From the IMG/VR virus record IMGVR_UViG_3300032282_005234, positions 1 to 25,820 of that record: 25,820 bases of DNA; one strand, given 5' to 3'. Shown here in pieces: positions 12,382-25,820 of the stretch. Source of the stretch: a virus. Position numbers and translations under genes: made by a program. Below the pieces are notes generated by a model. That model made no database searches. It had not been told where the DNA came from and saw only the letters and a program-made list of their open reading frames with translations. Each line of letters begins with the position of its first letter. Positions within the stretch are counted from its first letter, which is position 1.

Positions 12382-14796
12382 TTATGGTCGTGTTGATGCG
12401 TTTTGATATGAGTGAATAGCACTTCCAGCATTATAATCTGTAGAAATTCCAGAATATTCTGCAATGGTTCCAATTGTATTTGATTCATTTACTATCTCTG
12501 TAAAGCTGGTAAGATAAGAAATGTATCTGTCTTTAGCATCATCTGCTGACAATTGATTTGGATAAATAGCAAAATATCCATAAGTTCCTATTGCATAGTT
12601 TTCAAGATTTGTATCTGAATTAATAAAAACATTATTAATGTTTTTATTTTCATAATATACACATATTATATGATAAGGCTCGTCTATAATAAGTGTTCTT
12701 GGATTTGTGTATAAATCTAAACCATTTACATATACATATAAAAATACGTTGCCTATATCCTGTGATAACTCTAATGTGTCTTTGTCAAATCTTAAATATT
12801 CTCCAGTAACACTGTTGTTTACTATATATTGATTTTGACTATCTTCGTTAATCCCGTCTGGTCTAAACCAGAACTCCAGTGTTTGAAATCCCGTTGTAGG
12901 AATTGTTGACATCATTACTGCTGTATTTCCATTATCAATTTTAATTCCAAAATTATTAGAACGAGATAAAATATTAAATTTATTAGATCTTAAATTATAG
13001 GTATGAAGAAGACTGGACCCTTCCTCATAATAGGGTTTAATTATATAATTTTTAGAATCAGATAAAACATCAATATTTTTATATATTGATATATTAAAAT
13101 TATCAATTCTTGGTTGATATAAAGAAGATAAGTCATTAGATAAAATAGTTATTCTTACTTTAACGTCAGATGCTGGAGCCCCCGTTTGTGAAAATTCAGG
13201 AATTTGTCCTCCATTTTTAACAACATGCCAATCTCCATTTAATTCTGTTTGTACTTGAACACAAACGCTTTGCATATGACTTGATAACAAATATTGATTA
13301 TTTGTTGTTGTTGCAGTATTCCAAGAAAGCTTGCTTCCAGCTATGCCGTAGAATAAAGAGGCAGGAATTGAATAGTTCCAGGTACCTTTTGCTCTTACAA
13401 CATTATCTGTAAATGATAAAACAAGATTATCTTCATATGAAACAATTGCTTCATAATAAGAATTTGAATCAATATAAGAATTAAAAATATCTAAATCGTC
13501 TGTCATATAAGTAGTATTATTTAAATATAATTTTGTAGTTGTTGCTGAAAAATTTGGGAATACGTTTCCAGAGGCGCTGCCACCACTATCTATATATATG
13601 TTTACAAAGTTATTTTTTACTGAAAAAAATATAGGAGTGGTTCCTGACGCTGCTTCTGTTTGTAAAAGAAGTACATCTGAATTGTTTGCATAAGTATAAT
13701 ATAACCCTAGACTTTCGTCCTCAGTTTTAGCAAGATAAACAAATTCTGAATCATCATTACCAGTAATCTTAAATATTATATTATCTTCAATGGGATCATC
13801 TAAATATACGGGCAAGGCGTCCCAGTCCACTATAGTAGACATAGAAAAATTATTTAATGAAATATAATTTAATAAATCATTAAATGCATAATCAAAACTT
13901 CCTGAATCTACATACATTGCACTTGATTTTTTATGTGTTAGCCCATTGTCAATTGTGTATAGGTTATTTATAATCCCGTCTTTAAATGATCTATCTGTAT
14001 CAAATGATTTTTCATACCACTTCATGCTTGGATTTTCTTGAATATCAAAAAAATCTCCATCGGTTTGCTTTACATAAGACTGTGGCTTGGCGTCTCCAAA
14101 ACCCCAAATCATGTGAGATCTTATTTGATTTTGTGACAAAGTATAATTATAAAAAGCTAGGGAGCTAAGTATGATTGGATTGTTTGGTGGCACAAAACTA
14201 AAATGTATATTGTTTTTATCTTCAAAATCTGTTTCAAATTGAAATGTAGAGGGCAGGGTAAAAGATTCTCCAGCTATTCCATTAATTGATATAGAAATTG
14301 TCCTATTAGAATAAGAAGCAAATACGTGAAGTTGAGATTCTGTAGACTTTATTTGCTTACTAGCCGTTCCAACTATTATATTTCCTGAATAAATATTAAA
14401 TGATATAACATCGTTAACTCTATATATATCTCCTATGTTTGCAGATATACTTGAATTTCCTATGGCGAGAAGACCTTGAACGGTATCAGTGTTGCTTGAC
14501 GGAATAGAAAACCATAACTCTATACCAAAAGATAGTTCTTCTGTTCCTTTTACAAAAGCATTATATTCATTATTTATATAGGCATCTGTATCTAGGTCTA
14601 CATAAAACCCCTTAACCTCTACATATTCGTTAGTATCTAGGTCTTTGTATGTAGAGGTATTAAGAGGTAATATGTCTGTATAGGTTGGGGCGGAATTAAA
14701 AACAAGACTATTACCTCTGCCTGTAAGGTCGCTGGTTGTATCTAAACTCCAAAAACCCAATGGCTTATCAGCTAAAACTTTTTTAATATATGACAT
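12382..14796 (-). CDS. Large LamG/concanavalin-like protein, probable tail adhesin or head/tail decoration
   Basis: An 804-aa all-beta protein. Residues about 1-235 are LamG-like: VLADKPLGFWSLDTTSDLTG, then LSFGIELWFSIPSSNTD, SISINGIAGESFTLPS and ILSSLAFYNYTLSQNQIRSH. A second sandwich-like part lies at about 290-460 (NFSMSTIVDWDAL, SVKNNFVNIYIDSGG). A third lies at about 630-765 (FQTLEFWFRPDGINEDSQNQ, YHIICVYYENKNINNVFINS, YFAIYPNQLSADDAKDRY). Such proteins bind glycans or ligands and are common as phage tail fibre or baseplate parts. No enzyme active site is evident. It begins at ATG 14796, only 7 nt after a TATAAT, so it may be leaderless. It sits between the oxygenase operon and the head module, which is unusual for a tail protein. 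Confidence 0.75.
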   Translation of the reverse strand: MSYIKKVLADKPLGFWSLDTTSDLTGRGNSLVFNSAPTYTDILPLNTSTYKDLDTNEYVEVKGFYVDLDTDAYINNEYNAFVKGTEELSFGIELWFSIPSSNTDTVQGLLAIGNSSISANIGDIYRVNDVISFNIYSGNIIVGTASKQIKSTESQLHVFASYSNRTISISINGIAGESFTLPSTFQFETDFEDKNNIHFSFVPPNNPIILSSLAFYNYTLSQNQIRSHMIWGFGDAKPQSYVKQTDGDFFDIQENPSMKWYEKSFDTDRSFKDGIINNLYTIDNGLTHKKSSAMYVDSGSFDYAFNDLLNYISLNNFSMSTIVDWDALPVYLDDPIEDNIIFKITGNDDSEFVYLAKTEDESLGLYYTYANNSDVLLLQTEAASGTTPIFFSVKNNFVNIYIDSGGSASGNVFPNFSATTTKLYLNNTTYMTDDLDIFNSYIDSNSYYEAIVSYEDNLVLSFTDNVVRAKGTWNYSIPASLFYGIAGSKLSWNTATTTNNQYLLSSHMQSVCVQVQTELNGDWHVVKNGGQIPEFSQTGAPASDVKVRITILSNDLSSLYQPRIDNFNISIYKNIDVLSDSKNYIIKPYYEEGSSLLHTYNLRSNKFNILSRSNNFGIKIDNGNTAVMMSTIPTTGFQTLEFWFRPDGINEDSQNQYIVNNSVTGEYLRFDKDTLELSQDIGNVFLYVYVNGLDLYTNPRTLIIDEPYHIICVYYENKNINNVFINSDTNLENYAIGTYGYFAIYPNQLSADDAKDRYISYLTSFTEIVNESNTIGTIAEYSGISTDYNAGSAIHSYQNASTRP

Positions 14797-14817: not shown

Positions 14818-15627
14818 TTAGCTATTAACAACATCTTCATATAAAACAACTTTTCCATTTTCAACATAAAGCATGTTTCTTGGATTTTCATAATCACAAC
14901 GAGCTTTTTCAATTTCATTCCATTTAAATGCTCCACGCTCTTGTTGATTTTTAAGCCATTCTTCAGTTCCTGCAAATGGAGTCATTATAAAGTTTCTAAT
15001 AAAATATTTTTGACCATTGGTTATATTGGTAACTCCATGATAATAGGGTTTTCTTGATGGAAATACTAAAATTTCTCCAGCTTTTGGCTTATAACTTACA
15101 ACATCTCCATCAATATAAAACTCTACACTTCCGCCATCATAATCATCATTAATATATGTTGTACAAGTAATAAAAAATTTGTTTCCTGGCATGTCTTTTT
15201 CAGATTCAATAAAATCTGTATGATATTGCATGGCTAAATTATTACTCATAGATTTTACATTATCTTTATATTTAGAAAAAGAAGATGATGCAAGATCGGC
15301 TCCTGGGGGTAGCTCAATATTATTAATATAAATATAATGATCAATTGCTTTTCCATATGCTTCAATTACTCTATCAGACAAATACTTTTCATCATCATAT
15401 CTTTGATTATATTCTACTCCTAAGGCTTTTTCTTCATTTATATTCTTTGATTGACTGTAAGTTCCAAAATGCGCCCAATCATCCCATTTTTTTAAATAAT
15501 ATTTTCCATTAGCATCGGCTTCTGATTTTTTCATAATTTCATAAAGCTTTGATACATCTGGAAGTAATCCTGTATATAAATGTATTTTTGGATAAAGTTC
15601 TGTATATGTTAAATCATTAGTATTCAT
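14818..15627 (-). CDS. 2-oxoglutarate/Fe(II)-dependent oxygenase (prolyl 4-hydroxylase-like) 1
   Basis: A 269-aa member of the 2OG-Fe(II) oxygenase superfamily, which couples 2-oxoglutarate decarboxylation to hydroxylation of a substrate. Metal ligands are His136 and Asp138 (YHTDF) and His197 (YYHGV); Lys207 (GQKYFI), ten residues on, should bind the 2-oxoglutarate carboxylate. The strand TTYINDDYDGGSVEF and PKAGEILVFPSRKPYYHG are P4H-like. It is the longest of the five paralogues, with about 50 extra C-terminal residues of unclear role (NEIEKARCDYENPRNMLYVE). Its ATG overlaps the previous stop (TAATG). As the last gene of the eight-gene operon it lies just before the LamG protein. The substrate is unknown. 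Confidence 0.88.
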   Translation of the reverse strand: MNTNDLTYTELYPKIHLYTGLLPDVSKLYEIMKKSEADANGKYYLKKWDDWAHFGTYSQSKNINEEKALGVEYNQRYDDEKYLSDRVIEAYGKAIDHYIYINNIELPPGADLASSSFSKYKDNVKSMSNNLAMQYHTDFIESEKDMPGNKFFITCTTYINDDYDGGSVEFYIDGDVVSYKPKAGEILVFPSRKPYYHGVTNITNGQKYFIRNFIMTPFAGTEEWLKNQQERGAFKWNEIEKARCDYENPRNMLYVENGKVVLYEDVVNS

Positions 15628-16241
15628 TATTCATATTCCTCTAGTGAAAATTCTCCTAAAATAAAATATTTATTTCCAGATTTTATTTCATGAGATTGAT
15701 GTTTAAATGGTTTATAAGTAGGAAATATTAATACGCTTCCTTGCTCTGGTTTAATTTTTATATTATGATCTGGAAATTCTATCTCTCCACCTTCATAATC
15801 ATCATTTATATAAATTAATATTGTAAATGTTTTTTTAATTGAATCTTCATAAGAATCAAAATGTGGACCCATTGATTGACCAGGAAAATATTTATTTATA
15901 GAAAAACTTTTTCTAATATAAAATTTTTCAATTTCTTTTGCTTTTGTATAATTTTTTGTACAAAGATATTGTGATTCAAAAATATTATTAATTAAATATA
16001 AAAGTTTTTTATCTAGATTTTCATTTCCTGATAAAGTAGATCTTAATATATGTTTTTTTTGACCATAAATATTTTTGCTATCATTACTTGCACTCCAATT
16101 ATTCCATTTTTCAATATATGGATAAGATAATTCATTTTTATCCATTTCTTCTAATAATTCAATATATTGTTTTGGACAATTAAAAGAATTTTTAAAATAA
16201 AAAATTGAATCATTATCTAAAGCTTCAAATTCATGATACAT
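15627..16241 (-). CDS. 2-oxoglutarate/Fe(II)-dependent oxygenase 2
   Basis: A 204-aa oxygenase. Ligands are His127 and Asp129 (GPHFDS), distal His181 (FKHQSHE) and Lys191 (GNKYFI), keeping the His-to-Lys spacing of ten. It has the family strand IYINDDYEGGEIEF and LIFPTYKPFKHQ. The N-terminal half is little conserved with its neighbours, apart from a WNNWS segment like WDDWAHF in oxygenase 1, which makes these two the closest pair by eye. It overlaps the upstream gene by 11 nt. The gene is extremely AT-rich, with long A/T runs, well below the GC of the head genes, which suggests separate acquisition or relaxed constraint. All catalytic residues are present, so it should be active. Confidence 0.88.
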   Translation of the reverse strand: MYHEFEALDNDSIFYFKNSFNCPKQYIELLEEMDKNELSYPYIEKWNNWSASNDSKNIYGQKKHILRSTLSGNENLDKKLLYLINNIFESQYLCTKNYTKAKEIEKFYIRKSFSINKYFPGQSMGPHFDSYEDSIKKTFTILIYINDDYEGGEIEFPDHNIKIKPEQGSVLIFPTYKPFKHQSHEIKSGNKYFILGEFSLEEYE

Positions 16242-16944
16242 TTTGATGTTCTCCGTAAGGTGTCAATCTAATTCCTTTTTCTTTTAAATCTTCCCATTCT
16301 TTAAACTGATCAGCCTGTTGAGCCCTAACTCCAGCAATTTCCAAAGCCCAAGCATCTTGAAGTTCTTGACTATATTCTGATTCAGCATAATCCCAGAAAG
16401 ATCCTATTGTATACCTATCTCCTTTTGAAACAACTTTAACTTCGTGTTCATTTTCATGTCCGCCTGCAAATGCAGCAAACATTCCAGCTTTTGGTTTAAA
16501 GCAAATTGGATGATCTTTAAAATTAAGTTCGCCACCTTCAAAATCATCATTTAAATATAAAAATGAAGCAATTTTACTTCTTTCAAAAGCATTATATTTA
16601 CCATTTGTACTATTATCTGAATGAAAACTTGCAAAAGCTCCTTCTATCCATTTTTGTGCATGATAACTAACTTCTTTTACTGGTCTTTGCATTGCTTCTT
16701 CAGTAACTTCTTGAAATTTCTTTTTTAATTGCATAAAATAATCTTTTGATAAATTGAATAATAATAAATCTTCATCTTCATCTTCAAAACCAAATGCATA
16801 AGATTCATAAAAAGAAATAGGCATCCATTGAAGTTTTTGATTTTCTATTCTATAATTCCAATAATTTATTATATTTTTACATTCTTCTAAAGAAATAAAA
16901 TTTTCATAAACAACTATATCATCTTTGTAAACAATTTTATTCAT
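16231..16944 (-). CDS. 2-oxoglutarate/Fe(II)-dependent oxygenase 3
   Basis: A 237-aa oxygenase. Ligands are His108 and Asp110 (SFHSDNS), distal His167 (ENEHEVK) and Arg177 (GDRYTI), the Arg replacing the Lys seen in three of the paralogues. Family strands FLYLNDDFEGGELNF and PKAGMFAAFAGGHENEHEV are clear. The N-terminus (VVYENFISLEECKNIINYWN) is the usual helix that opens P4H-like domains. The C-terminal 50 residues are helical (YSQELQDAWALEIAGVRAQQ) with an extension absent from the others. It overlaps the upstream gene by 8 nt and the downstream gene by 11 nt. The substrate cannot be told from the sequence. Confidence 0.88.
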   Translation of the reverse strand: MNKIVYKDDIVVYENFISLEECKNIINYWNYRIENQKLQWMPISFYESYAFGFEDEDEDLLLFNLSKDYFMQLKKKFQEVTEEAMQRPVKEVSYHAQKWIEGAFASFHSDNSTNGKYNAFERSKIASFLYLNDDFEGGELNFKDHPICFKPKAGMFAAFAGGHENEHEVKVVSKGDRYTIGSFWDYAESEYSQELQDAWALEIAGVRAQQADQFKEWEDLKEKGIRLTPYGEHQNVS

Positions 16945-17620
16945 TTTTTTCCTTATGTTTTTTAATGGTCCAAAAAAAAGGAGATGTATATCTTGTTCCT
17001 TGTAAAACTGGTCTTACACCATGAATGTAATTCATATCACCTGGAAAAAAATATGCTGCTCTTTTCTTTGGTTTAAACTCTATACCTTGAAGAGGAAAAT
17101 ATAATTCTCCACCTTCATAATCATCATTTATATAAAATATAGAAGCTATGTCGTACCAGGGGAATGCGTTTGGTGTTCCAGCATCTGGACCTTCATGTAA
17201 TTCTTTATCTGCATGAGGTTCTTGTCTATCTCCAATATTCCATCTTACTATTGCTGGTGTTGTAGCTTCACAATCAATATTAAAAAAATCACTTACTTCA
17301 TTTTTTAATCTGGCAAACATTTCGTAAATAATATCTACAACTTTTTGATTTGTTTTTTGTAATGTATGTAATGTTGCTACTCTGTCCATCCAAGGATTGG
17401 CATCGTATATTACGGTCCCATTTTCATTTTTTTTAGTTATAGTAAAATCCCATGAAGTATTATTTTTAGCAAAATCAAATAAGATATCATGTTCTTCTTC
17501 GGTCATAAAATTTTCTAATTCTACAATCATATTTTCTGAATTTCCAAAAAATCCTGAAGGTGTATTAGAGACATGATCCGAATTTTCTAAATTAGTTGGA
17601 ATTCTATTTTCTTCAATCAT
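16937..17620 (-). CDS. 2-oxoglutarate/Fe(II)-dependent oxygenase 4
   Basis: A 227-aa oxygenase. Ligands are His136 and Asp138 (EPHADKE), distal His200 (YIHGVRP) and Arg210 (GTRYTS). It has the family strand FYINDDYEGGELYFP and a PKKRAAYFFPGDMNYIHGV segment very close to P4H-like enzymes of marine phages and bacteria. TPAIVRWNIGDRQEPHADKE is the strand leading into HxD. The N-terminus MIVELENFMTEEEHDILFDF is the standard opening helix. It overlaps the upstream gene by 4 nt (ATGA), so translation is coupled. This copy is the most canonical of the set. Confidence 0.9.
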   Translation of the reverse strand: MIEENRIPTNLENSDHVSNTPSGFFGNSENMIVELENFMTEEEHDILFDFAKNNTSWDFTITKKNENGTVIYDANPWMDRVATLHTLQKTNQKVVDIIYEMFARLKNEVSDFFNIDCEATTPAIVRWNIGDRQEPHADKELHEGPDAGTPNAFPWYDIASIFYINDDYEGGELYFPLQGIEFKPKKRAAYFFPGDMNYIHGVRPVLQGTRYTSPFFWTIKKHKEKNE

Positions 17621-18339
17621 TTATACTTCCTTCTTGACCAAAAATATTTTTTATAAACATCTCCGCCAGGTTTTCTAAATTCTTTAGAAGATTCTGCAAA
17701 TCTATTAATTATTTCTTCTTGATTATGTATTTTCAATTCTGATTCCCAATCTTCTCTTTTAAAAGGAATAATTTGAACAAATGGTGTTCCCGCTGGTATT
17801 AAACCTTTAAAATTTTTTTGTAAAAAAAATGGCATTAATCCTGGAGTTTTTAACTTGTCATTATCAATGATACCAGAAACTGTCATAAATGGAAGATCGT
17901 ATCTATTTACTGGATTTAAGTATATAGCACTATACCCATCTGGGAGTTCTGGGGACCAGGATGGGTACCAATGAAATGGAGACTCTATATATCCATTTGG
18001 AACAATAAAACCTGGCATAGGAGGTCTTGTTGCACAAAAATCTTCATATCCTTCGGGAGATTTTACTTTCATTATTCCATTTTTTTCATAAAAAAATAAA
18101 TCACAGGGTGTTTTTATTACATATCCACTAATAAAAAAATCTAAAATTGCAGGACAAGCCTTAAATGAAGGCATTTTTTCTCCATCATAATTTAATGCAT
18201 ATTCTTCTGTGTTTGGATTTTTTATATATTTATCTGCTTCAGAGTACCATTTTGGAATTACTTTGTAAGTAGATTCTGGATAATAATCTTTTATGTGTAA
18301 ATTGTATTCTCTATTAGAATGAAAAATTATTTTATTCAT
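17617..18339 (-). CDS. Phage protein of unknown function, distantly DUF6065-like in layout
   Basis: A 240-aa protein within the oxygenase operon. It opens with YKVIPKWYSEADKYIKNP, then FKACPAILDFFISGYVIKTP with CDLFFYEK, then FHWYPSWSPELPDGY, DLPFMTVSGIID, and PAGTPFVQIIPFKREDWESE. No HxD oxygenase motif is present. The order (Cys-Pro and small-Gly helix, a strand in 'tPcDl', a central 'lPf...sG', a late 'aGtPf.qiiPf') parallels the two paralogues downstream of the promoter, which have AYNCFPLTLTNGLGW, IIPFTTLISTG and ANTPIIALMP. A common origin is therefore inferred. Similar proteins turn up next to oxygenases and methyltransferases in environmental phages. No function is assigned. Confidence 0.7.
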   Translation of the reverse strand: MNKIIFHSNREYNLHIKDYYPESTYKVIPKWYSEADKYIKNPNTEEYALNYDGEKMPSFKACPAILDFFISGYVIKTPCDLFFYEKNGIMKVKSPEGYEDFCATRPPMPGFIVPNGYIESPFHWYPSWSPELPDGYSAIYLNPVNRYDLPFMTVSGIIDNDKLKTPGLMPFFLQKNFKGLIPAGTPFVQIIPFKREDWESELKIHNQEEIINRFAESSKEFRKPGGDVYKKYFWSRRKYK

Positions 18340-19039
18340 ATTTATTTATGGTTTCTAATCTTATTGCTTTAACTTCATGAGATCCTATTTTATTTCCTTT
18401 GTGATCTGTTGCATTTCTATAAAAATTTCCCCACATTCCTTTTTTATTTAATTCAACTAAAGTTTCGGAATATTTAAAAGAATTTTTAAAAGAATCTGTT
18501 GGAATTTTGTCACTATTATAAATATTAATTTTTGAATTTTGTAAATAAGAAAGAGATATTGGCATCAAAGCAATAATTGGTGTATTTGCTTTTAATACTA
18601 TTTCTTCATTTGCTTTTGTAACTCTTGCAGCACAAGGAAATTCTCCTCTAAAAAATCCAGTGCTTATGAGTGTTGTAAAAGGAATTATTCCTTCAGTAAA
18701 CATATTTGGAATTGGCATTGCTAACATGCTTACATTTTCTTCTGTAATAAACATTAAACCTGTTTTAAAACTTATTGAAGCATTTTCTCTTTCTGTATAA
18801 GCAAATTCATGTCCTTCTATTAATTGAACATGATTTCCATTTGACTGATTAATACCGTCCCATTTAAATACAATATCTCCTGGAAAGGAAATTCCCCATC
18901 CCAGCCCGTTTGTAAGAGTTAATGGAAAACAATTATATGCATGTTTATCAAATGTGCTATCCATCCAATCTCTTTTAATTGGAAGTTGTTTAATATTGGC
19001 TGTGATATTGTTAATTTTATAAACATTTATATTATACAT
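18332..19039 (-). CDS. DUF6065-like protein, paralogue B
   Basis: A 235-aa protein with the pattern I associate with DUF6065: IKRDWMDSTFDKHAYNCFPL then TLTNGLGWGISFPGDIVFKW, a glycine-containing strand, PNMFTEGIIPFTTLISTGFF and ANTPIIALMPISL. It is plainly homologous to the adjacent upstream gene and shares the C-terminal ATDHKGNKIGSHEV, encoded by a 38-nt stretch identical in both. No known catalytic motif is evident. It overlaps both neighbours by 8 nt and is probably co-translated. Since the family usually travels as single copies in phage or bacterial modification clusters, a partner role to the oxygenases is a guess from context only. Confidence 0.75.
   Translation of the reverse strand: MYNINVYKINNITANIKQLPIKRDWMDSTFDKHAYNCFPLTLTNGLGWGISFPGDIVFKWDGINQSNGNHVQLIEGHEFAYTERENASISFKTGLMFITEENVSMLAMPIPNMFTEGIIPFTTLISTGFFRGEFPCAARVTKANEEIVLKANTPIIALMPISLSYLQNSKINIYNSDKIPTDSFKNSFKYSETLVELNKKGMWGNFYRNATDHKGNKIGSHEVKAIRLETINKYE
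18369..18406. repeat. 38-nt direct repeat, copy 1 (in paralogue B)
   Basis: Identical to 19072-19109. It starts ttaacttcatgagatcct and encodes, on the minus strand, the DHKGNKIGSHEV tail of both DUF6065-like proteins. Confidence 0.9.
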
Positions 19040-19757
19040 TTTTTATATTTTCAATATTAAAATTAAAACTATTAACTTCATGAGATCCTATTTTATTTCC
19101 TTTGTGATCAATAGCTTTTATATACCAATCTGAAGTTTTATTATTATCTTCTCCATATTTTTTAAGGGATAAGGCATATTCTTTTGTATTGTGTGGGTAA
19201 AATAAATCTTTAAAATTATTTATTTTATCAAAACAATAATAATCAAGTTTAGTATTTTGAAATTGTAAAATTGAAATTGGCAATATGCTAGCTACTGGAG
19301 TGTTTGCTTTTATTTCAATTATTGAATTTTTTTTTGTTATTTTATTAACTACATGGGTTGCTCCAGTAAAAAATGAAGTTGCTAATATTGTTGTAAAAGA
19401 TTGTATTCCTTCAATAAAATAATTTGGAGCAGGCATTATTAAACAGCTGACTCCTTCTTCTGTTTTAAATAATGTTTTTGTATTAAAAGCTATTGTTCCA
19501 AGACCTCTGTCAACATAACAAAATTCTTCTCCTGAATAAAATTTAATTTTAGATTTAGATTTATTTGCTTCTCCATTCCATTCAAAAATAATATCTTCTG
19601 GAAATGAAATTGAAAATCCTAACTTATTTGCAAGAGTTAAGGGAAAACATTTATAAGCTCCATGATCCATATGCTCAGACATCCATTCTCTTTTTACAGA
19701 AAAAGGTTCTATATTAGCACATTTTTTTTCCATTTGATATGCTTTTAAATTATACAT
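19032..19757 (-). CDS. DUF6065-like protein, paralogue A
   Basis: A 241-aa protein with VKREWMSEHMDHGAYKCFPL, TLANKLGFSISFPEDIIFEW, PNYFIEGIQSFTTILATSFF and ANTPVASILPISILQFQNTK, matching paralogue B through most of its length (roughly 40% by eye). Both start MYN and end in a DHKGNKIGSHEV-like tail, so they arose by tandem duplication. The tail is far more conserved at DNA level than the rest. It begins 4 nt after the stop of the first oxygenase gene and overlaps paralogue B by 8 nt. No catalytic residues can be named. Confidence 0.75.
   Translation of the reverse strand: MYNLKAYQMEKKCANIEPFSVKREWMSEHMDHGAYKCFPLTLANKLGFSISFPEDIIFEWNGEANKSKSKIKFYSGEEFCYVDRGLGTIAFNTKTLFKTEEGVSCLIMPAPNYFIEGIQSFTTILATSFFTGATHVVNKITKKNSIIEIKANTPVASILPISILQFQNTKLDYYCFDKINNFKDLFYPHNTKEYALSLKKYGEDNNKTSDWYIKAIDHKGNKIGSHEVNSFNFNIENIKNV
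19072..19109. repeat. 38-nt direct repeat, copy 2 (in paralogue A)
   Basis: Exact second copy of 18369-18406, 703 nt away, within the 3' end of the tandem paralogue. Confidence 0.9.
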
Positions 19758-19761
19758 AATT

Positions 19762-20406
19762 TTATTTATTCATAATTCCATTATGAAATTCTGGTGTATG
19801 TGCATTTTCATTATAATCAAGCATTGTAACTATAGAATATTTTGTTCCTTTTTTAACTGGCATTGCTCTATGAGAAAACAAATAAGTTGATGGGAAAATA
19901 TATAAATCACCAGCCTTTGGTTTAAATGAAATTCCAAGTCTACCAAAACTTAATTCTCCACCTTCATAATCATCATTTATATAAGCTACTAATGAAACAG
20001 TACAGTAATACGACCATCCGTGATCTGCATGTTCTTGAAAATGTTGTCCAGGACCATATTTAATTACATTCATAGCTTCCCAATATTTCATTTCAATATT
20101 ATACATATTGCAATAATCATTTACTGCATTTATTTTTGCATTATATGCATCTTGCCATATTTCATCTACTACTGGTCTTGGATTTTCTAATAATTTTTTA
20201 ATTTTAAAATCTACGCAATCTCTATATTCTGGCATTTTTTGTTTATATCCTACATATGCTTCTTGCCATTCAAGATTGTTTTCATTAATATAATTTTCTA
20301 TTCTTTGTACTAAATTTAATTCTTTTTTTAAAATATTTCTGTACACCCAGATCCCAGGAAACAGTTGTTCTTTTTCTAATTGGGCAGGTAATATTTGACT
20401 ATTCAT
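19762..20406 (-). CDS. 2-oxoglutarate/Fe(II)-dependent oxygenase 5 (first gene of operon)
   Basis: A 214-aa oxygenase. Ligands are His126 and Asp128 (QEHADHG), distal His179 (FSHRAMP) and Lys189 (GTKYSI), again ten apart. Family segments are VAYINDDYEGGELSFG and PKAGDLYIFPSTYLFSHRA. It opens the modification operon. A minus-strand TATAAT at 20430-20435 and a purine-rich GAGAAAGAG before ATG 20406 would drive it. The N-terminal half (LEWQEAYVGYKQKMPEYRDC) is divergent from the other four, suggesting that the copies came together over time or have diverged in substrate. All active-site residues are intact. Confidence 0.88.
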   Translation of the reverse strand: MNSQILPAQLEKEQLFPGIWVYRNILKKELNLVQRIENYINENNLEWQEAYVGYKQKMPEYRDCVDFKIKKLLENPRPVVDEIWQDAYNAKINAVNDYCNMYNIEMKYWEAMNVIKYGPGQHFQEHADHGWSYYCTVSLVAYINDDYEGGELSFGRLGISFKPKAGDLYIFPSTYLFSHRAMPVKKGTKYSIVTMLDYNENAHTPEFHNGIMNK

Positions 20407-20462: not shown

Positions 20463-21176
20463 ATGACAATTATACCAGATAATATTAAGCTTGAATATCA
20501 TATGGACAAAGTAAAAGATTATTTAAATTTTGAAAAATTTGACAAAGAATATGGAATTGATACTGCTACTAACGGGTTTTTAGATTTATGGAACATCTCT
20601 AATAATGAATCTGTTTATCCTGATTGGGAAAAAAATGATAACTTATATCCAGGTTCTAACGGTTATCAAACTGCTGCCATAAAGCATCTTAATAAAATTA
20701 ACGAAATTTTATATAAACTTATATCAAATATTAATGAATATTCATTTATTGATGTAGGATGTGGAAAAGGCAAGGTTATTATTAATAATATTATTAAAGA
20801 TGCATTATATAAAAAAAATATTGGAATAGAAATTGATAAAAATTTATGTGATATTTCTATAAATAATTTAAATATTATAAAAAATAAATTTAATATAAAT
20901 AATGTTGAAATTTATAATAAAAATATATTAGATTATAATTGTATTAAAGAACCATCAATATATTTCTTTTTTAATCCATTTAACAATTATATTTATAAAA
21001 AATTTTTAATAAAAAATAAAAAACAATTTTTAGAATATCCTACTATAATTGTTCAAATCTATCCTTTTTATCCAACTCTTGGAGAAAATACTGATTTTAT
21101 TGAATTTCCAATAGAAGAAAACATGCAATTTAAAAAAATATATAATGAAAAATATATTTTAATATATTCTTCTTAA
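20463..21176 (+). CDS. Class I SAM-dependent methyltransferase
   Basis: A 237-aa protein and the only plus-strand gene seen. Motif I is FIDVGCGKGKVI (about residues 96-107), the acidic end of strand 2 is GIEID, and motif IV is YFFFNPF, as in small protein- or metabolite-methylating class I enzymes. The N-terminal FDKEYGIDTATNGFLDLW and YPGSNGYQTAAIKHL are typical of a group of short bacterial and phage methyltransferases with a 'FD..yG.dT' opening. The NPF tetrad argues against a DNA adenine (NPPY/DPPY) or cytosine (PCQ) enzyme. Base composition is extreme, with many runs of A and T. It is convergent with the Phe/Pro-rich gene (7 nt apart) and divergent from the oxygenase operon. The target is unknown. 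Confidence 0.83.
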   Translation: MTIIPDNIKLEYHMDKVKDYLNFEKFDKEYGIDTATNGFLDLWNISNNESVYPDWEKNDNLYPGSNGYQTAAIKHLNKINEILYKLISNINEYSFIDVGCGKGKVIINNIIKDALYKKNIGIEIDKNLCDISINNLNIIKNKFNINNVEIYNKNILDYNCIKEPSIYFFFNPFNNYIYKKFLIKNKKQFLEYPTIIVQIYPFYPTLGENTDFIEFPIEENMQFKKIYNEKYILIYSS

Positions 21177-21183
21177 AAATATT

Positions 21184-21615
21184 TTAATATATAGCTTTCC
21201 ATGCTCCAGCTACTCTTACAAAACCTGCGTTTCCTGCAACTCCTGAAGCTGGACCTGCTTTTTTCCAAGCTCCAGCAACTCTTACATAAACTGAAATAGC
21301 GGTTGCTCTTTTCCAAACTCCTCCAACTCTAACCCAATACCCACTATTTGCTGGTGGAAAATAAGGTGGACTAAAAAATGCTGGTGGAAAAAACGGTGGA
21401 AAAAACGGTGGACCAAAAAATGCTGGTGGACTAAAAAATGCTGGTGGACTAAAAAATGCTGGTGGAAAAAACGGTGGAAAAAACGGTGGACTAAAAAATG
21501 CTGGTGGACTAAAAAATGCTGGTGGAAAAAATGGAGGTGAAAAATAAGCTTTTGGCGTACGCTTATTATTTTTAACGCTTGAAATTTTTATATTTTTCTT
21601 TACACTTTTTCTCAT
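21184..21615 (-). CDS. Phe/Pro-rich repeat protein with three VRVxGxWK units
   Basis: A 143-aa protein of three parts. Residues 1-23 are strongly basic (MRKSVKKNIKISSVKNNKRT). Residues about 24-90 are almost only Phe, Pro, Ala and Ser, in units such as PPAFFS and PPFF, with thirteen Pro-Pro pairs and no charge. Residues about 91-143 hold three copies of an aromatic-VRV-x-G-x-WK motif (WVRVGGVWKRA, YVRVAGAWKKA, FVRVAGAWKAI), a short beta unit found at the ends of many phage tail or fibre proteins. No signal peptide or enzyme motif is seen. It follows two fibre genes and is probably a small adhesin or fibre tip, possibly a substrate of the nearby hydroxylases. The start has a weak ribosome site. 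Confidence 0.75.
   Translation of the reverse strand: MRKSVKKNIKISSVKNNKRTPKAYFSPPFFPPAFFSPPAFFSPPFFPPFFPPAFFSPPAFFSPPAFFGPPFFPPFFPPAFFSPPYFPPANSGYWVRVGGVWKRATAISVYVRVAGAWKKAGPASGVAGNAGFVRVAGAWKAIY
21350..21546. repeat. Coding minisatellite of 12- and 18-nt units
   Basis: On the plus strand, units ggtggaaaaaac (12 nt, Phe-Phe-Pro-Pro) and ggtggactaaaaaatgct (18 nt, Ser-Pro-Pro-Ala-Phe-Phe) alternate in mixed order. A compound block of two 12-mers followed by 18-mers occurs twice. All units are multiples of three, so gain or loss keeps the frame. Confidence 0.92.
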
Positions 21616-21628
21616 GATTATCTTTCTA

Positions 21629-22057
21629 TTACGGAGTATAAACTATTACAATGTCGCCATCTGATGCGCTATATGGATTTAAAGTGCTATTAAAATTTGC
21701 AGTAGTATCAATAAAAATTGTACGAATTGGAATATTTAATGTGCTTCCCAGGGAAACAGCTCCATATGATTTAATAACTGATTGAGTTGATCCACCAGCT
21801 GCTGATCCTGTTCCTTGAATTGTAACAGAAGAATTTGTTAAAGATGCATTAGCAATAGCTGATAATGTATTAGTTGATCCTGAAATTGATTTATTTGTTA
21901 AAGTGTCTGTGGTTGCTTTTCCTACCAGCGTGTCTGTTGCTGCTGGAAGTGTGACTACGCTTGTTCCCGCAACTGCTGGAGCAGAAATGGTTACTGTTCC
22001 AGATGTAGATCCATCAAGATCAATACTGGTTTTTGGTTTAAAACTTTTCTCTGCCAT
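21629..22057 (-). CDS. Small fibre-like protein related to the C-terminus of the large fibre
   Basis: A 142-aa protein. Residues about 20-60 read VTLPAATDTLVGKATTDTLT then NKSISGSTNTLS, nearly the same as VTLPDATDTLVGKATTDTLT and two related copies in the adjacent large fibre. The C-terminal part (IPIRTIFIDTTANFNSTLNP, ending GDIVIVYTP) is beta-rich and unique. The Thr/Ser/Ala-rich, Cys-free composition is typical of trimeric fibre shafts. It starts at ATG 22057 with AAGGAG 9 nt upstream, 29 nt after the large fibre gene, with a TGTTATAAT (22086-22094) overlapping that gene's stop. It is probably a fibre accessory or tip formed by partial duplication. Confidence 0.7.
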   Translation of the reverse strand: MAEKSFKPKTSIDLDGSTSGTVTISAPAVAGTSVVTLPAATDTLVGKATTDTLTNKSISGSTNTLSAIANASLTNSSVTIQGTGSAAGGSTQSVIKSYGAVSLGSTLNIPIRTIFIDTTANFNSTLNPYSASDGDIVIVYTP

Positions 22058-22085: not shown

Positions 22086-22094
22086 ATTATAACA
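22086..22094 (-). promoter_or_regulatory. Possible extended -10 for the small fibre genes
   Basis: TGTTATAAT on the minus strand (TGn-TATAAT) overlaps the large fibre's stop codon, 29 nt upstream of the next ATG. This is the same class of element as at 3786 and 7759, but no terminator precedes it. Confidence 0.35.
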
Positions 22095-25000
22095 TTACTT
22101 TTTGTAATTTCACAGTAGCATTAGTTCCTGAAGCATCTGTAATTGTTACTGTAAGTATCATATTTGTAGAAGATACTGAAGCTGCTACTGCAATTCCCGT
22201 CATCTTTCCACCAGTTTCAATAATTGCAAATTCATTAGAATCAACAGAAGTTCCATCTGTTTGAACCATAATTTGAGAGCTTCTTACTTTGGATCCTTGC
22301 TTAATTGAAAGTACGTATCTAATTGTTGTAAATCCGCTCAGGGCTGTTGTATCAACAGTGGTAGCTGTATTAAGAGATACGGTTGTTGCTGCTGCTGAGG
22401 TACCGATGGTCTTGTTTGTAAGGGTATCTGTAGTTGCTTTACCAACTAAAGTATCGGTAGCATCTGGAAGCGTAAGAGTCTTTGCTGTAGTAAATGCTGA
22501 AGTAAGTGTTCCAGTAATACCCGTTGTTCCAGTTACGTCAATATTAAGTTTCTTTGTAGCATCAGATACATCTACAAAGTATGTAGTAGAATCTGACAAA
22601 GATTTGTTTGTAAGGGTTTGAGTATCTGTTGTTCCAAGAATTGTTCCTGAAGGAACAGCTTTACCAAGAACTTGAGTTGATGTAAGTACATCAGTTCCAT
22701 TAATTTTATATGTTTTACCTGTGGCAACATCAACATTTTCTGAATGGAGGAATGATGCTGTTGATGAATACCAGTTAATAGTTTTATCTGTAGCACCCTT
22801 AATTGTAATACCCGCACCATTTGCAGTAACATCTGTAGGGCTTGCAACTTTTGCAATTTCAATATTTGAATCTGCTACAGCAAGGGTAGATGAGTTAACT
22901 GTTGTGGTTGTTCCGCTTACCGTTAGATTTCCATTAATAGTAATTGTGCTATTTGAATTTCCTAGATTTATAGCATTTACGCCTGTTCCTGCGGTAGCAA
23001 TATTTATTGTTCCTGTAGTAAGACCAGCTCCAATTGCCATTGTTCCAGTAGTAATGTTAGGAAATAATGAAGTTGCAGTTCCAGCTGCGGAAGCAGCACT
23101 TATACTATCAATTACTGGAGTAGTTAATGTTAATCCTGCAATTGTAGTTACTGTTGTTCCAGAAGATATAAGTGTTGATCCAATTGTTGGAGCGCTATAA
23201 CCAGAAACTGATGCCCATGATAAAGTTCCAGCTCCATCATTGGTAAGATATTTACCTGAATTTGAAGTTTGTGAAGGAAGCAATGCTGTTGCTGCTGTCA
23301 TTGCAGTTGTAGCACCAGTTCCACCTGCTGCTATTGGCAAAGTTCCAGCGGTCATGGTATTTGTTCCATTTCCATAAACTGCTTGATTAGCTGATATGGA
23401 TGTAATTCCAGTTCCTCCTTGAGCAACTTGAATATAACCAATAGGAGTTACATATCTATAATCAAGTGTAACTCCTCCTCCTATTGTTCCTGAAGTAACT
23501 GTGCCTAAAGTAGTAATATTTGTAGAGCCAGCCCATGTTGAAAGGGCTGTATTTTCTACATTTCCAATACCAATTGATGTTCTGTGTGTTGAAGCTGATT
23601 CAGCAGATACTGTATTGTCGGCATTATATTTAGGAAAAGTAATTGCACTTGGATTTGTTTGTGTAAAAATGTTTGAACCAAGTGTAGTAGCACCCAGATT
23701 GGTACGAGCTGTAGAGGCATCTGTGGCACCCGTTCCACCTTTGTTTACGGCTATTGTTGTTCCAGACCATGTACCAGATGTTATAGTTCCAACTGTTGTA
23801 AGTGAAGAAGTTGTTACTCCAGATGCAAGGGTATCTCCTGAAAGTGTTCCCGCTGCTGCGGTGACAGTAATTGCTGCAGAGCCATCAAATGATACTCCAT
23901 TAATATTCCTTGCTGTAGCAAGTTTTGTTGCTGTATCAGCATTACCTGTAAGTGCTCCAGTAAATCCTGTAGAAGTAACGCTTGTCAATCCAGCTAAAGT
24001 TGTAGCAGAAGAACCTAAGTTTATGTCAGTTGTTCCAACTGTTACTTTAGAATTTGTAAGTCCTGCATTTGGAATTGTTGCAACACTTGATATGACTCCA
24101 CCTGAAGTTGTTGCTACATATCCAGCGGTTGAAAGTGGAAGAGTTACGGTTCCTGTAAAGGTTGGAGAGGCAATGGGGGCTTTTTGACCAACTAATGTTG
24201 CAAGGGAAGAAGCTGTTGACTCATCTGCAATAATTAAATCACTAAGTTCTTTAAGGGTGTCATACGCTGCTCCAGCGCCATTAATTAAATTATCTACAGC
24301 AGTTTTAACAAACTCTGTAGTTGCAACTTGAGTATTGTTTGTTGCAGAAACTGCTGTGGGGGCTGATGGGGTACCAGTAAAGGTTGGAGATGCAAGAGGA
24401 GCTTTTAAATCAAGTGCAGATTGTGTGGCTGTTGATATTGGTTTATTTGCATCTGAAGTATTATCTACGTTACCAAGACCTACGTGCGTTTTGGTTACGC
24501 CAGAAACAGTGCCAGTAAAAGTTGGAGAAGCTATGGGTGCATATGTTGAAGATGCAGTTGAAGAGGCTAATTTAGAATCAATTTGTGTTTGAATTGCAGA
24601 GGTAACACCATCAAGATATCCAATTTCAGTATCAGAAACATCGGTTACTCTAGCTTGAATTGTTGATGTATTTACAGAAATTGCTCCAGTCGAGTCATTA
24701 TATGAAAGACCAGTTCCTAGGTTATCTCCTATTGCATCTTGGGCTCTTTCATTTGTAAAATAAAGACCAGTACCTTCTGGAATATCTGTTGTAGTCAATA
24801 ATCCCACAACGGTATCTGTATAATTTTCTGCGGTAGTTATTGCATTTGAAATATCTGTGGAAGTAGATGATTGATATGATCCAAAATCTGCAACATCTAC
24901 TGGCGTATATCCAAGGGCATCGGTTACATCTGTATCTGAAAGAGATATACTTCCAGTTCTTGTGTTGAATGCTGTAACACCGCTATTTGATATAGCACCT

Positions 25001-25820
25001 GTGCTGTCATTATAAGAAAGTCCCGTTCCCAGGTTATCTCCTACGGCATCTTGAGCTCTTTCATTTGTAAAATAAAGGTTAGTTCCTTCTGCAATGTCTG
25101 TTGTAGTTTGATCATCAACATATTTCTTTGTTGCAGCATCATTGTCTGAAGAAGGGGCTGCAAGTCCTGTAATACTATTTGATCCCATTGCAATATTGCC
25201 AGACATTGTACCGCCAGCTTTTGGAAGCTTTGTTGCAATACTATTAGTTACTGTTGTAGCAAAATCTTTATCTGCTCCCAATGCATCTGATAATTCTTTA
25301 AGTGTATCAAGGGTTGATGGAGCACCATTAATAAGATTAGTAATTTGAGTATTTGTGTAAGTTTCTGCGTATGTTTTAGTTGCCAGCGCAGAAGTGTCTG
25401 CAATTCCATGAACACTTGTAGAAGCAGAGTTGTGGGTGCTTACAGCGTCATTTGCATAAGTTTTAGTTGCCAGAGCAGAAGTGTCTGCAATTCCATGAAC
25501 ACTTGTAGAAGCAGAGTTGTGGGTGCTTACTGCACCACTTGCTGCAGAGTCTGCGTATGTTTTAGTTGCAAGGGCTGAGGTGTCAGAAATTCCATGAACG
25601 CTTGTAGTTGCTGAATTATGAGTACTTACGGAAGTATCTGCGTATGTTTTAGTTGCAAGGGCTGAGGTGTCAGCAATTCCATGAACGCTTGTAGTTGCTG
25701 AATTATGATTGCTTACGGCTGTGGTTGCAAACCCTTCAGCATTATCTTGGGCTGTTCCTGCTGCTGCATCCGCATAAGTTGTTGTAGCTAATTCTGAGGT
25801 GTCAGCAATTCCATGAACGC
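22087..25820 (-). CDS. Giant repeat-built tail fibre / structural protein (partial, N-terminus beyond right edge)
   Basis: The frame is open from the right edge to TAA at 22087, at least 1,243 aa; a TTG at 25281 sometimes taken as the start is internal. It is built of fibre repeats. About five VHGIADTSALATKTYAD units lie near the visible N-terminus. Two copies of GLYFTNERAQDAIGDNLGTG-type units with LSYNDSTGAIS follow, then several APIASPTFTGTV units, NKGGTGATDASTARTNLGA-like units, a TGNLTVSGTT-like region, and TLPDATDTLVGKATTDTLTN units. The C-terminal 100 residues form a beta domain (TIRYVLSIKQGSKVRSSQIM, ending ATVKLQKVML). These modules are known from fibre or baseplate proteins of marine and freshwater phages. 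It has no Cys and is Thr/Ser/Ala/Gly-rich, as expected for a trimeric shaft. It is likely the main receptor-binding or shaft protein. Confidence 0.85.
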   Translation of the reverse strand, partial: VHGIADTSELATTTYADAAAGTAQDNAEGFATTAVSNHNSATTSVHGIADTSALATKTYADTSVSTHNSATTSVHGISDTSALATKTYADSAASGAVSTHNSASTSVHGIADTSALATKTYANDAVSTHNSASTSVHGIADTSALATKTYAETYTNTQITNLINGAPSTLDTLKELSDALGADKDFATTVTNSIATKLPKAGGTMSGNIAMGSNSITGLAAPSSDNDAATKKYVDDQTTTDIAEGTNLYFTNERAQDAVGDNLGTGLSYNDSTGAISNSGVTAFNTRTGSISLSDTDVTDALGYTPVDVADFGSYQSSTSTDISNAITTAENYTDTVVGLLTTTDIPEGTGLYFTNERAQDAIGDNLGTGLSYNDSTGAISVNTSTIQARVTDVSDTEIGYLDGVTSAIQTQIDSKLASSTASSTYAPIASPTFTGTVSGVTKTHVGLGNVDNTSDANKPISTATQSALDLKAPLASPTFTGTPSAPTAVSATNNTQVATTEFVKTAVDNLINGAGAAYDTLKELSDLIIADESTASSLATLVGQKAPIASPTFTGTVTLPLSTAGYVATTSGGVISSVATIPNAGLTNSKVTVGTTDINLGSSATTLAGLTSVTSTGFTGALTGNADTATKLATARNINGVSFDGSAAITVTAAAGTLSGDTLASGVTTSSLTTVGTITSGTWSGTTIAVNKGGTGATDASTARTNLGATTLGSNIFTQTNPSAITFPKYNADNTVSAESASTHRTSIGIGNVENTALSTWAGSTNITTLGTVTSGTIGGGVTLDYRYVTPIGYIQVAQGGTGITSISANQAVYGNGTNTMTAGTLPIAAGGTGATTAMTAATALLPSQTSNSGKYLTNDGAGTLSWASVSGYSAPTIGSTLISSGTTVTTIAGLTLTTPVIDSISAASAAGTATSLFPNITTGTMAIGAGLTTGTINIATAGTGVNAINLGNSNSTITINGNLTVSGTTTTVNSSTLAVADSNIEIAKVASPTDVTANGAGITIKGATDKTINWYSSTASFLHSENVDVATGKTYKINGTDVLTSTQVLGKAVPSGTILGTTDTQTLTNKSLSDSTTYFVDVSDATKKLNIDVTGTTGITGTLTSAFTTAKTLTLPDATDTLVGKATTDTLTNKTIGTSAAATTVSLNTATTVDTTALSGFTTIRYVLSIKQGSKVRSSQIMVQTDGTSVDSNEFAIIETGGKMTGIAVAASVSSTNMILTVTITDASGTNATVKLQKVML
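24668..25110. repeat. Two copies of the LYFTNERAQDA module in the fibre gene
   Basis: About 130 nt at 24668-24800 recur at 24978-25110 with roughly 85% identity by eye. They encode IPEGTGLYFTNERAQDAIGD and IAEGTNLYFTNERAQDAVGD, each followed by NLGTGLSYNDSTGAIS. Confidence 0.75.
25395..25820. repeat. Tandem VHGI repeats of the fibre gene
   Basis: The string attccatgaac recurs five times, at spacings of 87, 99, 87 and 132 nt (29, 33, 29 and 44 codons). It marks units that read on the minus strand as VHGIADTSALATKTYAD plus VSTHNSATTS. The longer spacings carry in-frame inserts, and the last copy is cut by the window edge. Confidence 0.88.

Follow-up and report, generated by a model that had tools for sequence, protein, structure and literature searches.

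2-oxoglutarate (2OG)/Fe(II) oxygenases are frequent as extra genes in aquatic phages. Cyanophages carry one to five of these genes each (PMC3037559) and cyanophage S-SCSM1 carries 24, for which the metabolic proposals are untested; the same source states that no specific investigation has been made of what 2OG oxygenases do in viruses (PMC9602691). A prolyl 4-hydroxylase (P4H) has been described in PBCV-1, as cited in a passage of PMC9301287, which states that the viral use of such enzymes "remains cryptic". Here we analyze a viral stretch of 25,820 nucleotides (nt) (the window; IMG/VR record IMGVR_UViG_3300032282_005234, positions 1 to 25,820), in which five divergent oxygenase genes share an operon with three DUF6065-type genes, downstream of a gene for a Pro/Phe-repeat protein. 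We read this cassette as a protein-modification kit for the phage's own fibre protein, with a probability of about 0.62. Naming a specific, testable substrate and a partner family turns attention away from metabolism and towards the chemistry of the virion.

The window encodes portal, protease, capsid, adaptor, tape-measure and tail-fibre proteins, and the closest relatives of its protease are found in Streptomyces phages (e.g. Coruscant, 46.6% identity). On the minus strand, from 20406 to 14818, eight co-directional genes (g8 to g1) form an operon, with g7, g6 and g5 placed between the first and second of the oxygenases g8, g4, g3, g2 and g1. The overlaps that a first-pass annotation had reported between most of the genes were recovered (1, 11, 8, 4, 8 and 8 nt), the sole gap being the 4 nt between g8 and g7. 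That annotation was right about the five oxygenases but described an operon of five, overlooking the DUF6065 and DUF6065-like genes, and it made no mention of the repeat protein at 21184-21615. The 15-20 kb block has a GC content of 27% vs 34-38% in its surroundings. The features are as follows:

19762 to 20406, minus strand: g8, P4H-like 2OG/Fe(II) oxygenase, first gene of the cassette (PF13640, 52.9 bits; AlphaFold (AF2) model and Foldseek)
19032 to 19757, minus strand: g7, DUF6065 protein (PF19541, 95.3 bits)
18332 to 19039, minus strand: g6, DUF6065 protein, kept across cassettes (PF19541, 93.5 bits)
17617 to 18339, minus strand: g5, DUF6065-like protein (phrog_7084; PHROG 7e-33) with a predicted dUTPase/dCTP-deaminase-like fold
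16937 to 17620, minus strand: g4, P4H-like 2OG oxygenase (PF13640)
16231 to 16944, minus strand: g3, P4H-like 2OG oxygenase (PF13640)
15627 to 16241, minus strand: g2, P4H-like 2OG oxygenase (PF13640), at a position multiplied in other phages
14818 to 15627, minus strand: g1, P4H-like 2OG oxygenase (PF13640)
21184 to 21615, minus strand: Pro/Phe-repeat protein of 143 amino acids, candidate substrate (sequence, tandem repeats)
21629 to 22057, minus strand: virion structural/tail-fibre-like protein of 142 amino acids (phrog_6002, weak)
22087 to 25818, minus strand: tail fibre protein continuing past the window end (phrog_454, 2631 and 7032, tail fiber)
20463 to 21176, plus strand: methyltransferase-like gene between the repeat protein and g8 (weak methyltransferase matches)
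12382 to 14796, minus strand: LamG-domain virion protein directly downstream of the cassette (PF13385, 28.7 bits; phrog_11584)

All five oxygenases score above the PF13640 cut-off of 27 bits (39.1, 44.2, 39.4, 30.2 and 52.9 bits), an agreement far beyond chance. Checked residue by residue, the NDD[YF][ED]GG motif and every His/Asp/His/basic position given for the five genes in the first-pass annotation were exact, so that the HxD...H iron triad and the 2OG-binding Lys/Arg are present throughout. These residues are invariant in 21 orthologues of g8 (H126/D128/H179/K189), in 15 of g4 (H136/D138/H200/R210) and in the aligned orthologues of g3 (H108/D110/H167/R177), and conserved in 25 of g1 (H136/D138/H197/K207). 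The structural check proposed earlier was run for g8, the other four being assigned by profile: its AF2 model (predicted local distance difference test, pLDDT, 87) is a double-stranded beta-helix of P4H-like fold, and Foldseek matches it to prolyl 4-hydroxylases with E-values of 1e-8 to 3e-10, including C. reinhardtii P4H (2jig, and 3gze with a Ser-Pro peptide), PBCV-1 vCPH, B. anthracis P4H and PHD2. The five are P4H-like enzymes that may hydroxylate peptidyl proline, most likely as prolyl (or Phe) hydroxylases of a repeat fibre protein and not as metabolic genes. A reading as defence genes was rejected, PADLOC having returned only a generic CRISPR-associated 2OG model.

The cassette is conserved. 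A g8 search of viral contigs returned 80 loci, nearly all with the same arrangement: g8 comes first, followed by one to four DUF6065-type genes and by g4, g1 and g3, and one to four copies of g2 close the series; g1 comes last only in the window and two relatives. The gene set that the first-pass annotation suggested looking for in other phages was therefore found, in 69 complete copies from public viral contigs, in which 4-8 oxygenases are accompanied by 1-4 DUF6065-type genes in nearly constant order. Seven oxygenases are present in 35 of these cassettes, six in 13, five in 19, and four and eight in one each; gene junctions are shorter than 30 nt in 96% of cases and overlapping in 71%. In a tree of 69 oxygenases, every cassette position forms one clade (support: g1 100/100, g3 100/100, g4 100/99, g8 99/94, g2 94/65), and the five oxygenases are therefore old and individually maintained rather than recent copies. 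The g2 position is looser, being expanded and at times catalytically dead in other phages. The earlier claim that all the enzymes are catalytically intact thus holds for the window but not elsewhere, since 22 of the 69 complete cassettes hold one paralogue failing the active-site pattern, and those aligned have clearly lost HxD and the distal His. Such paralogues, retained at cassette ends (L054:13972-14517, L058:8721-9311, L062:14574-15149), hint at a non-catalytic subunit. A glycosyltransferase gene lies directly behind 6 of the 69 complete cassettes.

Against 50,697 phage records, neither a nucleotide search with the cassette region nor tblastn with g6 and g1 gave a match. A 120-kb phage contig carries a second cluster of several oxygenases with a g5-like gene (L091:3654-10870), which on reading also appears to hold glutathione-peroxidase-like and AdoMet-decarboxylase-like genes. 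The methyltransferase-like gene on the plus strand (20463-21176) lies outside the conserved cassette and recurs in the same place only in L010; in many relatives (e.g. L022:783-1031, L040:7727-8002), a small Cys-rich DUF6171-like protein with CxxC motifs sits between the repeat protein and g8.

The 143-amino-acid protein encoded upstream of g8 carries a Pro/Phe repeat (SPPFFPPAFFSPPAFF..., the middle reading SPPFFPPAFFSPPAFFSPPFFPPFFPP...), which lies at about 21352-21540; at the DNA level, tandem repeats span 21353-21544. In other loci, the same slot is occupied by FnIII-domain proteins ending in (FFPP)n or FFAPP repeats. After the FFPP repeat, some of these proteins show a weak Hint/intein-splicing-like match (CLSPDSVIFTADGWVQAKDI...; L082:6558-7883, L079:4128-5450, L157:2140-3861, L163), which suggests possible self-processing. 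A repeat open reading frame (ORF) is found upstream of g8, on the same strand and within 0.9 kb, in 67/67 loci with enough upstream DNA, and such ORFs are otherwise almost absent (78/1826 ORFs).

The linkage also holds in the reverse direction. Contigs were fetched solely by FFPPFFPPFFPP-coding DNA and scored for a same-strand oxygenase of cassette type in the next 7 kb downstream. Among the matches listed, to which all counts of this test refer, 43 of 51 evaluable loci had the oxygenase and 36 of 51 a DUF6065-type gene; alternative ORF definitions shift the first count to 41/49 or 39/47. Controls treated identically gave 0/38 (tail-fibre GGTGATTA), 1/42 (PTPT) and 2/38 (GPPG). When related loci were collapsed, 7 of 10 FFPP groups remained positive vs 0/32, 1/38 and 2/37 control groups; Fisher p-values are at most 1e-14 over loci and 4e-6 to 6e-5 over groups, and are indicative, the cluster grouping being transitive and the controls not habitat-matched. 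In still other phages, a single oxygenase lies directly behind an FFPP protein of varying architecture (L107, L157, L168, L172). Most of the sampled oxygenases from these minimal pairs fall in the g4 or g8 clades of the tree, which suggests that g4 and g8 provide the core activities; g4-type enzymes adjoin FFPP proteins in other phages too. The FFPP-repeat protein is thus a likely candidate substrate of the cassette oxygenases.

Could this linkage arise without any substrate relation? Gene turnover in aquatic phages is concentrated in tail-fibre regions, where repeat proteins and oxygenases could gather independently; cyanophage oxygenases likewise lie near tail fibres, and two of the three controls, besides the habitat difference, were GC-richer than the FFPP loci (0.50 and 0.55 vs 0.39). 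However, the tail-fibre control gave no case and the GC-matched control, PTPT, a single one, whereas the forward linkage is complete and the minimal pairs recur across differing repeat-protein architectures, and we consider independent gathering improbable. Alternatively, the oxygenases could play an auxiliary metabolic role by changing host 2-oxoglutarate/succinate or nitrogen metabolism, as has been proposed for the cyanophage homologues (PMC3037559; PMC9602691); but a 2OG sink has no need of five divergent P4H-type clades kept with DUF6065 genes beside virion genes, which makes this role very unlikely.

The DUF6065-type proteins bear on a further alternative. g6 and g7 are clear PF19541 members (cut-off 26.6 bits), while g5 falls below Pfam detection and compares only modestly with the DUF6065 profile (E 1e-4, probability 56%). 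The AF2 model of g5 (pLDDT 86) has dCTP deaminases/dUTPases as all of its top 50 Foldseek matches in the PDB (prob mostly 0.84-1.0, target-normalised TM-scores (TMt) mostly 0.4-0.55, E 3e-3 at best); its BFVD matches are led by uncharacterised Caudovirales proteins, with dUTPases next. A dUTPase-like jelly roll is thus likely for g5 from its model, though unproven. Of the five catalytic motifs, motif 3 was inspected: g5 has a motif-3-like G-I-I-D stretch, and the g6/g7 alignments appear to lack the Asp. The DUF6065 profile found nothing meaningful among PDB sequences. A lone g5 relative also occurs near virion genes in haloarchaeal tailed viruses, with no adjoining oxygenase annotated (L088:7836-8678, Halorubrum tailed phage 5).

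A dUTPase-fold partner would suit nucleic-acid hypermodification, in which TET/JBP-like oxygenases act on phage DNA bases, and g2 and g8 do have weak, sub-threshold Tet_JBP matches. Yet the PF13640 scores are far higher than those for Tet_JBP, peptide prolyl hydroxylases head the structural matches, the cassette contains no DNA-modification genes and g6/g7 appear to be without the motif-3 Asp; we give this explanation scarcely any weight. Hydroxylation of host translation factors, for which the structural match of g8 to the P. putida P4H:EF-Tu complex (4iw3; P. putida PHD acts on EF-Tu) would speak, leaves both the FFPP linkage and the conserved position among virion genes unexplained and is least credible of all.

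We next considered DUF6065 in bacteria, whose profile strongly matches that of the phage proteins (E 3e-24). A scan of genome contigs gave no match with the phage DUF6065 alignment and 80 loci with the bacterial one. In Sinorhizobium, Mesorhizobium, Rhizobium and relatives (Rhizobiales/Caulobacterales; L460-L475, L520), DUF6065 lies directly behind autotransporters with long Pro runs: across 20 loci of these orders, Pro runs occur in just 16 of 399 long ORFs, mostly in the slot ahead of DUF6065, and strict adjacency scoring places a Pro-run ORF next to DUF6065 in 11 of the 20. In Ochrobactrum, DUF6065 follows a protein with collagen-like repeats. This is suggestive only, but DUF6065 may be a general partner of Pro-rich surface proteins.

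In the mechanism we propose, a repeat protein bearing the hydrophobic (F/Y)FPP/SPPAFF repeat would be made together with the tail fibre. g8 and g4 as core enzymes, with g1, g2 and g3 as additions, would then hydroxylate its prolines, perhaps also Phe or other residues, while DUF6065 proteins might bind or present the Pro-rich chain. In some phages, the glycosyltransferase could attach sugars to the new hydroxyls. An unmodified FFPP chain would be very hydrophobic, and hydroxylation would make it more soluble and stiffer, as in extensins. The product would be an extensin-like fibre element acting at or near the host-binding end. The uncultured tailed phages that carry the kit would thus probably harden or decorate their own fibre protein, comparable to extensin in plants and collagen in animals. 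We hold only tentatively the fuller version, in which a dedicated multi-enzyme pathway of P4H paralogues, DUF6065 and glycosyltransferase works on the FFPP repeats to yield a hydroxyproline-rich, sometimes glycosylated element, and in which DUF6065 would be a hitherto unrecognised companion of Pro-rich surface proteins, in bacteria as well as in phages. Of the "dedicated virion or host modification system" with several substrates proposed in the first-pass annotation, virion modification, as opposed to a single housekeeping enzyme, has good support from the gene context: the cassette is conserved, a tail fibre lies nearby and an FFPP partner is present. As for several substrates, a single repeat protein carrying modifications at more than one position would be at least as good an account.

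Several points weigh against modification of the fibre protein. FFPP is not among the characterised substrates of P4Hs, genetic linkage alone is no proof of catalysis and the FFPP protein is placed in the virion by inference. Eight of the 51 evaluable FFPP loci have no oxygenase within reach. A 2OG gene lies near none of the 80 bacterial DUF6065 copies, and the DUF6065 genes of Xanthomonas and certain other bacteria have no Pro-rich neighbour. Finally, the fold match for DUF6065 is too weak to pass the customary E-value limit, and the fold it points to is that of a nucleotide enzyme.

How, then, does this phage kit compare with described systems? In the literature searched, neither the conserved cassette nor the link with DUF6065 or with an FFPP partner was found described, and there was no paper on DUF6065, on FFPPFFPP, or on prolyl hydroxylase with a proline-rich bacteriophage tail fiber. 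Whether such arrays were already described with a known substrate, a question the first-pass annotation had raised, has a divided answer: arrays are known, as in S-SCSM1 with its 24 genes, but the proposals for them are metabolic and untested (PMC9602691). The array itself is therefore not new, and the conserved cassette with DUF6065 and a repeat partner appears to be. The oxygenases of T4-like cyanophages, S-SCSM1 included, belong to the same superfamily, with several per genome and arrays beside tail fibres (four in a row in S-SCSM1); unlike here, the cyanophage stretches examined contain no FFPP repeat, the neighbours being collagen-like in S-CAM7 and of RQPR type in S-SCSM1, and g6 has no tblastn match in phage records. 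Between the S-SCSM1 arrays, a short tail fibre with an Arg/Pro/Phe-rich RQPRxFR repeat (L543:4081-5346) is perhaps an analogous substrate.

Known P4Hs (CrP4H, PBCV-1 vCPH, bacterial P4H, PHD2) share the double-stranded beta-helix, HxD...H, the basic residue ten after the distal His and PF13640, but are single enzymes, whereas in the cassette 4-8 divergent paralogues are joined by DUF6065 and by an FFPP partner as putative substrate. In viral collagen hydroxylation, by the PBCV-1 P4H and, reportedly, a mimivirus lysyl hydroxylase, a virus likewise encodes a hydroxylase for its own repetitive protein; here, the repeat is FFPP/SPPAFF and not Gly-X-Y, and the virus is a tailed phage with a multi-enzyme cassette. 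With plant extensins and other hydroxyproline-rich glycoproteins, the resemblance of the repeat protein is functional, with no homology claimed and hydroxylation putative in the phage; what the two have in common is a Pro- and aromatic-rich repeat, P4Hs and, in some loci, a glycosyltransferase.

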